Source: Parcubacteria group bacterium M6-OD1-3 (lineage in GTDB: Bacteria; Patescibacteriota; Minisyncoccia; Moranbacterales; UBA9337). Taken from it: DNA of 38,949 bases. Below the pieces are notes generated by a model. The model was not told the origin of the DNA and searched no databases. It saw only the letters and a program-made list of their open reading frames with translations. Position numbers and translations under genes: made by a program. Within the stretch, counting starts at the first letter, position 1. The number at the start of each line of letters is the position of its first letter. The DNA lies in contig LSNR01000021.1 in NCBI GenBank assembly GCA_003056165.1, forward strand, positions 1 to 38,949, written 5' to 3'. Positions 4,287 to 5,932 of the stretch are shown here, piece after piece.

Positions 4287-4733
4287 ATGAAAACATTAGC
4301 TGTAAACAAACGAGCAAGTTTTGATTATGAACTCATTGATAAATATGAGGCCGGCTTGGTTTTGAGTGGACAAGAAGTAAAGTCAGTTAAAACCGGGCAT
4401 ATTAGTTTAAAAGGTAGTTTCGTTACAATTAAAAATTCTGAGCTATTCTTAACCAATGCTAATATACCGTTTTATAAATTTGCTGGAAATTCACAGGGGT
4501 ATGACCCAACTCAAGCTAGGAAATTACTTCTCAAAAAATCAGAAATAAACAGATTGCTCGGAAAATCCAAAACTCAAGGCTTGACATTAGTGCCAATTCG
4601 GGTTTATACTAAGAAAAGACTTATTAAGCTTGAGTTTGCCGTTGGTCGTGGAAAAAAGAAATTTGACAAAAGAGAAAGTATTAAAAGAAAAGAGTCAGTA
4701 CGAAAATTAAGACGAGTTATGAAAAATCGCTAG
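4287..4733 (+). CDS. smpB: SsrA-binding protein SmpB
   Basis: NKRASFDYELIDKYEAGLVLSGQEVKSVKTGHISLKGSF...KKKFDKRESIKRKE. Confidence 0.96.
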   Translation: MKTLAVNKRASFDYELIDKYEAGLVLSGQEVKSVKTGHISLKGSFVTIKNSELFLTNANIPFYKFAGNSQGYDPTQARKLLLKKSEINRLLGKSKTQGLTLVPIRVYTKKRLIKLEFAVGRGKKKFDKRESIKRKESVRKLRRVMKNR

Positions 4734-4865
4734 AATATCCCATCGATAATATTTATTAAAATATTATGGGCGGGGCTGTTTAGCTTCGACAGGTTGACCT
4801 TTAAAAATTAAGCAAATCGACCAATGCGTTAACGGTCGTAAATCTTTAACGCAAGATATATAAGT

Positions 4866-4940
4866 GCAAACTTAATATCCAAAGCAAAGGCTGTATTTGC
4901 TAACGCATTTACACCATCATTTGCTACTGCTATCGCCTAA
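4866..4940 (+). other. tmRNA tag-peptide reading frame (ANLISKAKAVFANAFTPSFATAIA*)
   Basis: GCA AAC resume codons after ATAAGT, 24 codons to TAA, hydrophobic AIA C-terminus. Confidence 0.7.
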
Positions 4941-5107
4941 ACGCGATTGCCATTGAACCGCCAACTTCCGGTAAGCGGATTTCAGTGTCAAACACCGGGA
5001 TAGCCAATTATGGTGTTCTTGAATAATTGGCAAAGCTAATTAAGAACTCGGTTAATAAATTTTTGTTTATTTTAAATTTATTATCTTAAATTTTTGTTTT
5101 GCAACAA

Positions 5108-5288
5108 TTAGACATCACACTCCAGAAACAGCTTTATAATCTACAAAAATTGTCCCTTGCTTGTTTTTCGTAAGAAAAAATATTCGCTGTAGCTAAGACT
5201 ACAACTCATCTTTTTTCTTACTGCAAATTCAACCAATGACTCAATTTTTATTAAATTCTAGAATCTGTTTCTGGAGCGTGATGTCTAA
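5108..5288 (+). repeat. Long hairpin inside ssrA (possible inserted element)
   Basis: TTAGACATCACACTCCAGAAACAG (5108-5131) is the reverse complement of CTGTTTCTGGAGCGTGATGTCTAA (5265-5288) except one A/C. Inner stems: GTAAGAAAAAA/TTTTTTCTTAC and TGTAG/CTACA. Confidence 0.85.
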
Positions 5289-5389
5289 AAAAATAAACTA
5301 AATTTGTAGAAAAATTTTTAAAATCAATTCTGGACGTGGGTTCAATTCCCACCAGCTCCACGAAGATTCAATTTCAAAACTAATAAACT

Positions 5390-5932
5390 ATGAGAAGACG
5401 CTACAAAAAAAGATCATTTAAACCACAAAAACCAAGATATCGGGTTAATGAATACATTCGGATACCGGTAGTTTTTGTTATTGATGAAAACGGTAAACAG
5501 TTGGGAGAAATGAGTAATACTGAAGCACTAAAAATCGCTAGAGAGCACGAATTGGATTTGGTTGAAGTGGCACCAAATGCTAAACCTCCCGTTTGCAAAA
5601 TAACAAATTATGGAAAATTTCAATACAGCCAATCCAAACAAGATAGATTAAGTAAGGCTAAACAGAAAAAAACCGGAACCAAAGGAATTCGATTGGGAAT
5701 GCGTACCGATAGTCACGATTTAAGTTTTAAGAAAAAACAAGCGGAAAAATTTTTAAGCAAGGGACATAAGGTAAAGGTGGAATTAAGATTGCGAGGTAGA
5801 GAAAAAGCTCATCAAGATTTGGCTCGGAAAAATTTACGAGAATTTATTGAAAATATTGATATACCGTATAAAATGGAGGATAATATTAAAAGATTTCCCG
5901 GAGGTTTTAATGTAATAATTTCACCGGAGTAA
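5390..5932 (+). CDS. infC: Translation initiation factor IF-3
   Basis: VNEYIRIPVVFVIDENGKQLGEMSNTEALKIAREHELDLVEVAPNAKPPVCKI... Confidence 0.96.
   Translation: MRRRYKKRSFKPQKPRYRVNEYIRIPVVFVIDENGKQLGEMSNTEALKIAREHELDLVEVAPNAKPPVCKITNYGKFQYSQSKQDRLSKAKQKKTGTKGIRLGMRTDSHDLSFKKKQAEKFLSKGHKVKVELRLRGREKAHQDLARKNLREFIENIDIPYKMEDNIKRFPGGFNVIISPE

Follow-up and report, generated by a model that had tools for sequence, protein, structure and literature searches.

A dispersed palindromic repeat in the PK4 loop of a Patescibacteria tmRNA gene and the probable recurrent tolerance of such hairpins at tmRNA pseudoknots

Introduction

Stalled ribosomes are rescued by tmRNA, the product of ssrA. Genes for tmRNA are interrupted by group I introns and by permutation, and permuted genes yield a tmRNA that works in two pieces (PMC11915505). 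The gene forms named in the tmRNA database paper are only the standard form, the permuted form and the form with a group I intron in the T-loop, and the same paper notes that introns at other tmRNA sites may have been missed (PMC11915505). Palindromic repeats in tmRNA are already on record for Rickettsia. Rickettsia palindromic elements (RPE) are described as inserted both in the gene for tmRNA and in that for RNase P RNA (Ogata et al. 2002, as cited by the review PMC2229807).

The window analyzed here is a whole stretch of 38,949 nt, contig 2 of an 818-kb Patescibacteria assembly (G000; 26 contigs, 94% complete), and its ssrA carries a long hairpin. As RPE are described there, the two are alike in being short palindromic selfish repeats of similar size (RPE, 105-146 bp) that form a long hairpin, are dispersed in the genome and lie in a tmRNA gene, where they are apparently tolerated (PMC2229807). 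The likeness is one of description, and the G000 repeat differs from RPE in its phylum, in that it occupies the PK4 loop of a tmRNA gene of the standard one-piece form, and in that several unrelated families act in this way within one order of Patescibacteria. The intervening sequences (IVS) of 23S rRNA, such as that of Coxiella, also have a long near-perfect stem (28 bp, versus 23-24 bp here) in a structured RNA host, with RNase III as the expected processing enzyme (PMC4990558). Unlike an IVS, the G000 insert lies in ssrA and not in 23S rRNA, has no notable ORF, belongs to a dispersed family and is only predicted to be processed. MITEs and palindromic repeats such as Correia/NEMIS, RUP and ERIC share with it the short length, inverted termini, lack of coding capacity, multiple copies and mostly intergenic location (PMC2229807). 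However, the G000 element is near-palindromic over its whole length, and no partner transposon was found by its terminal pattern; a further difference from MITEs is that another family of the order, that of G071, was inserted without target duplication at the one clear empty site.

Results

Boundaries and core of the interrupted ssrA

The window contains ssrA in the order smpB-ssrA-infC (Table 1). This neighbourhood is conserved across the order, and smpB adjoins ssrA in nearly all relatives' loci examined. The original prediction had proposed an ssrA of about 589 nt, unusually long, from the letters of the DNA. A cmscan search with the standard-form Rfam model confirmed these boundaries: the score exceeded the gathering threshold of 47 bits, model positions 1-374 were covered, and the alignment contained a single large insertion at the place that had been predicted. 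ARAGORN did not detect the gene when run on the window.

Table 1. Coordinates of the features of the ssrA locus within the window
Feature	Position	Strand	Basis
smpB, partner protein of tmRNA (148 aa)	4287..4733	+	NCBIfam NF003843, 178.7 bits; TIGR00086, 170.1 bits
ssrA (tmRNA), 589 nt with insert, about 410 nt without	4772..5360	+	RF00023, 72.7 bits
P2 5' strand GCAAA	4812..4816	+	pairs with 5303-5307 TTTGT
Tag reading frame AKAVFANAFTPSFATAIA*, intact	4884..4940	+	read from sequence; aligned to relatives' tags
PK4 stem 1 (5050-5061/5074-5085), loop 5062-5073	5050..5085	+	stem 1 read from sequence
Mini-hairpin TTGTT-TTGC-AACAA, PK4 connecting loop	5094..5107	+	compensated pairs in G001, G006 and G009
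Inserted palindromic repeat, 179 nt, TAGACAT...ATGTCTA	5109..5287	+	two further copies, covarying arms, fold z
PK4 stem 2 3' strand AAAATAAAC	5290..5298	+	pairs with 5065-5073; covariation in family f1
P2 3' strand TTTGT	5303..5307	+	covariation in the alignment of 71 ssrA
infC, translation initiation factor IF-3	5390..5932	+	TIGR00168, 162.4 bits

The standard features of a tmRNA were present, namely a 7-bp acceptor stem (4772-4778/5353-5359), a T-arm, a co-varying P2 helix and the tag frame, whose resume codon was inferred by comparison. As the original prediction had anticipated, the nested core helices folded in the same way with and without the insert, and the acceptor stem had a pair probability of 0.99 in both cases. 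The five tested pairs of P2 formed in all 71 aligned ssrA (100%), with compensatory changes that included a change from G-C to A-T in G000 itself. Among 115 highly conserved positions, 109 were retained in G000 (rank 14 of 71 from the bottom), which is inside the range of uninterrupted relatives.

The helix that had been proposed to enclose the hairpin was upheld in part. Its inner portion, GTTTATTTT (5065-5073) with AAAATAAAC, is PK4 stem 2, the 5' strand of which forms part of the loop of PK4 stem 1. Within family f1 this stem co-varies, the pair 5069/5294 being A-T in five sequences and G-C in five, and the pair 5071/5292 being T-A in seven and C-G in three. The proposed AAATTT/AAATTT extension was spurious, because its bases are already taken up by PK4 stem 1 and the P2 3' strand. 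Both PK4 stem 2 and P2 are intact in the interrupted gene.

Structure and position of the insert

The predicted hairpin block at 5108-5288 had its coordinates right. Its arms (5108-5134 and 5262-5288) are 27 nt long, match at 93% and are separated by 127 nt; the pairing thus extends outward from the 179-nt repeat to 5108/5288, and the terminal 23-24 bp of the stem contain one A.C mismatch. The minimum free energy of 5108-5288 was -58.5 kcal/mol, compared to -23.4 +/- 3.4 kcal/mol for shuffled sequences (z = -10.3, 0/200). No ORF of at least 90 aa was found at the insert, whose 179 nt have room for no more than 59 codons.

By alignment to the closest relatives, the insert is preceded by the 3' strand of PK4 stem 1 and followed by that of PK4 stem 2, and it adjoins the 3' foot of the mini-hairpin in the connecting loop. 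At the insert's place in this loop, close relatives have a mini-hairpin of 18 nt, for example TTCCATT-TTGC-AATGGAA in G001 and TTCTGTT-TTGC-AACAGAA in G006, whose SmpB proteins are 78% and 73% identical to that of G000, respectively. The PK4 loops of G001, G006 and G009 are without the insert. The aligned relatives are too divergent to mark the junctions in G000 exactly. In contrast to tmRNA genes with a group I intron or a permutation, the insert is not in the T-loop, cmscan returned no intron family, and the gene order is the unpermuted standard 1-374.

The insert as a dispersed repeat

Two further full-length copies of the element were found in G000, at C5:55022-55201 (88% identical) and C12:3991-4166 (73% identical). 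Both are intergenic. One follows a phosphoesterase-like gene and precedes a secY-like gene, and the other lies between NIF3-like and aminotransferase-like genes, all named from reading the ORFs. All three copies start with TAGACAT and end with ATGTCTA, and thus have identical 7-nt ends. Among them, 9 of 65 pairs were changed on both sides and 94.3% of cells paired; neither value was reached by shuffles (0/500). By these double-sided changes, each copy either was a near-perfect palindrome or has been maintained as one. Selection, hairpin-templated repair or separate source copies could account for this, and three sequences cannot tell among them.

Searches of 141 related genomes by blastn and a covariance model gave no convincing copy, only weak chance-like or unrelated hairpin matches. 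The phage and plasmid collections gave no blastn match to the element, and no viral contig contained its internal motif or the terminus of the G071 family described below. When the 94%-complete G000 assembly was searched for the terminal pattern with up to 3 mismatches as a sign of an autonomous partner, paired ends were found only at the element copies. The element shares with MITEs its dispersed copies with matching termini, its terminal inverted repeats and its lack of a substantial ORF. A short non-autonomous, MITE-like palindromic repeat is the best reading of these sequences.

Interrupted ssrA genes in related genomes

About 131 genomes of the order (Moraniibacteriota-like) were searched, and roughly 119 had a full ssrA. 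Full-length spans of the relatives in this search were 382-473 nt, except in G029 (598 nt) and G071 (561 nt). The ssrA genes of G000, G029 and G071 were resolved by cmscan; 67 relatives with spans in this range and G053 were aligned end to end. The genome search had understated the span of G071 as 373 instead of 561 nt, and therefore about 45 genes that were not individually aligned could hide a medium insertion.

Three ssrA genes were clearly interrupted, those of G000, G029 and G071. The ssrA of G029 (L139:334-931, G029:C6) contains an unrelated palindrome of ~165 nt (GGGATTGGCTTTAA...) just 3' of PK1. The family of this palindrome is abundant in genus g28: G029 has about 10 strong matches to it, and further matches occur in G045 and G057. 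The ssrA of G045, of the same genus as G029, is without it. The ssrA of G071 (L170:1313-1873, G071:C6) contains a third palindrome family, TTATCCCCCACCACTTTT...AAAAGTGGTGGGGGATGA, in the PK1 connecting loop. In G066, of the same genus as G071, ssrA matches closely across the site and provides an exact empty site, GCTCGT^AAAACC, relative to which no target duplication was found at the G071 element.

A 473-nt ssrA in G053 (L131, G053:C42:9104-9576), a genome from a different family of the order, has a palindrome of ~75 nt with G071-type termini at the same PK1 site and is probably a fourth interrupted gene. The PK1 helices of G029, G071 and G053 were assigned by eye from the sequences. Judging from these genes, PK1 was the point of entry into ssrA for no fewer than two other palindrome families of this order, and several independent insertions in the order all lie clear of the tag frame, P2 and the tRNA-like domain. 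Because hairpin repeats unrelated to that of G000 occur in the ssrA of related bacteria, the gene appears to tolerate such insertions repeatedly.

Several other hairpins were observed. In G071, a 119-nt palindrome (TCTCTACGAACTACGAATT arms, 19/19 paired) lies at L170:1879-1997, ~7 nt past the 3' end of the tmRNA gene. The palindromes of G071 (L207, L210, L212, L214 and L216) have unequal ends, TTATCCCC...GGGGATGA, and thus a direction; most have T on one flank and A on the other, and these traits may hint at a strand-specific transposition mechanism. The 451-nt ssrA of G078 (L235, G078:C8:9929-10379) has an extra hairpin of ~45-60 nt in the PK4 connecting loop, which is absent from G043, G055 and G022 of the same genus. 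G082 and G070 (genus g21) have a common palindromic repeat (..TTTTTGTCACGGAGAAA..; L142:1501-1593 and L143:1501-1621) of another family of the order.

No full ssrA was found, even with laxer filters, in G015, G020, G057, G060, G062, G082, G086, G113, G118, G122 and G128. Six of these assemblies (G015, G020, G113, G118, G082 and G060) are 90-99% complete and may hide larger insertions or unusual ssrA forms. G025 was considered as a split tmRNA and rejected, as its break is a contig edge.

Discussion

The original prediction had offered a mobile hairpin element tolerated in the tmRNA gene as one reading, and this is the one that agrees best with the results: the element is multicopy in the genome and absent from relatives, and the core of the host gene is intact. 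We assign a probability of about 0.85 to a mobile repeat inserted into a still-intact ssrA. Across the order, the sequences are best read as selfish, MITE-like palindromes that the pseudoknot loops of tmRNA have repeatedly tolerated.

Under this reading, a MITE-like palindrome would have entered the single ssrA found in G000, presumably by transposition, at the connecting loop of PK4. On the simplest account, such selfish palindromes would insert at random, and those in ssrA would survive only if the hairpin can project from or beside a pseudoknot loop. The two halves of the tmRNA would still pair through P1, P2 and PK4 stem 2 while the hairpin projects from the loop, so that the tRNA-like domain, tag frame and core helices would survive and the gene would probably be used. 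In the transcript, the long duplex would most likely act as an rRNA intervening sequence does. RNase III would cut it to leave a two-piece tmRNA, with a 5' part (about 336 nt) and a 3' part (about 72 nt) joined by base pairs, similar in principle to the product of permuted genes (PMC11915505). A spacer removed by processing, also raised in the original prediction, is thus a possible fate of the insert that is compatible with its being a mobile element. A duplex of 23-24 bp could plausibly serve RNase III as a substrate, and we lean slightly towards cleavage of the ssrA transcript at the insert.

The explanation that comes closest differs in processing only: the element would be kept uncut as a harmless additional arm of a one-piece 589-nt tmRNA. 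This has a substantial but lesser chance of being correct. In its favour, the insert occupies a loop that is not part of the functional core, and the fold of the nested core helices is the same whether or not the insert is present. Against it, RNase III (rnc) is encoded in G000 (249.9 bits in a profile search, above the cut-off), and comparable long IVS stems of 23S rRNA are excised by this enzyme (PMC4990558).

A second alternative is that the insertion inactivated ssrA, leaving a young pseudogene, with ribosome rescue proceeding by another route. tmRNA is dispensable in some bacteria and not essential in all, and therefore a freshly inactivated ssrA would still appear intact. The insert also contributes a very stable duplex to what is the single ssrA found in the assembly. 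However, the core helices, the tag frame and the conserved positions are retained, smpB matches its profiles as an intact gene, and several independent insertions in the order all spare the tag frame, P2 and the tRNA-like domain. We consider inactivation unlikely. With its tRNA-like ends and tag frame preserved, 109 of 115 conserved positions retained and smpB intact, the interrupted ssrA is probably functional. These features favour a functional tmRNA without proving it, as a pseudogene of recent origin would have the same appearance.

The hairpin could also be a lineage-specific structural domain, that is, an enlarged PK4 arm. The small hairpin at the same place in the PK4 connecting loop of relatives and the maintenance of the insert pairs through compensatory change would agree with this. 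The explanation is very improbable, being largely refuted by the occurrence of the 179-nt sequence at two intergenic sites in G000. Moreover, the alignment contradicts an equivalent arm in all related ssrA genes, as relatives are without the insert, and the compensatory changes occur among the dispersed copies and not among ssrA orthologues. The expanded PK4-region arm of the original prediction was thus right as to position only, since the insert belongs to a dispersed repeat family and is no enlarged form of the mini-hairpin. An assembly artefact or chimaera in this fragmented metagenome-assembled genome is hardly credible, as the ends of the insert are clean, ssrA insertions of this kind also occur in independent assemblies, and the copies differ by 12-27% and are therefore not collapsed copies of one another.

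Relative to the Rickettsia elements (PMC2229807), the novelty lies in the phylum, in the families of elements and in the fact that unrelated families recur at pseudoknot loops. A broader proposal, still tentative, is that the connecting loops of tmRNA pseudoknots are recurrent landing sites for hairpins in this Patescibacteria order, where RNase III would produce an unprecedented kind of two-piece tmRNA, with the break in a loop and without permutation.

These insertions indicate that natural tmRNAs can accommodate large inserts in the PK4 loop and, at PK1, both in the loop and at the foot. They reveal lineage-specific families of palindromic repeats in ultra-small bacteria with reduced genomes, and hairpin inserts would be one cause of ssrA being overlooked there by ARAGORN and similar tmRNA finders. 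The interrupted ssrA would also provide a natural experiment on whether tmRNA can function when split.
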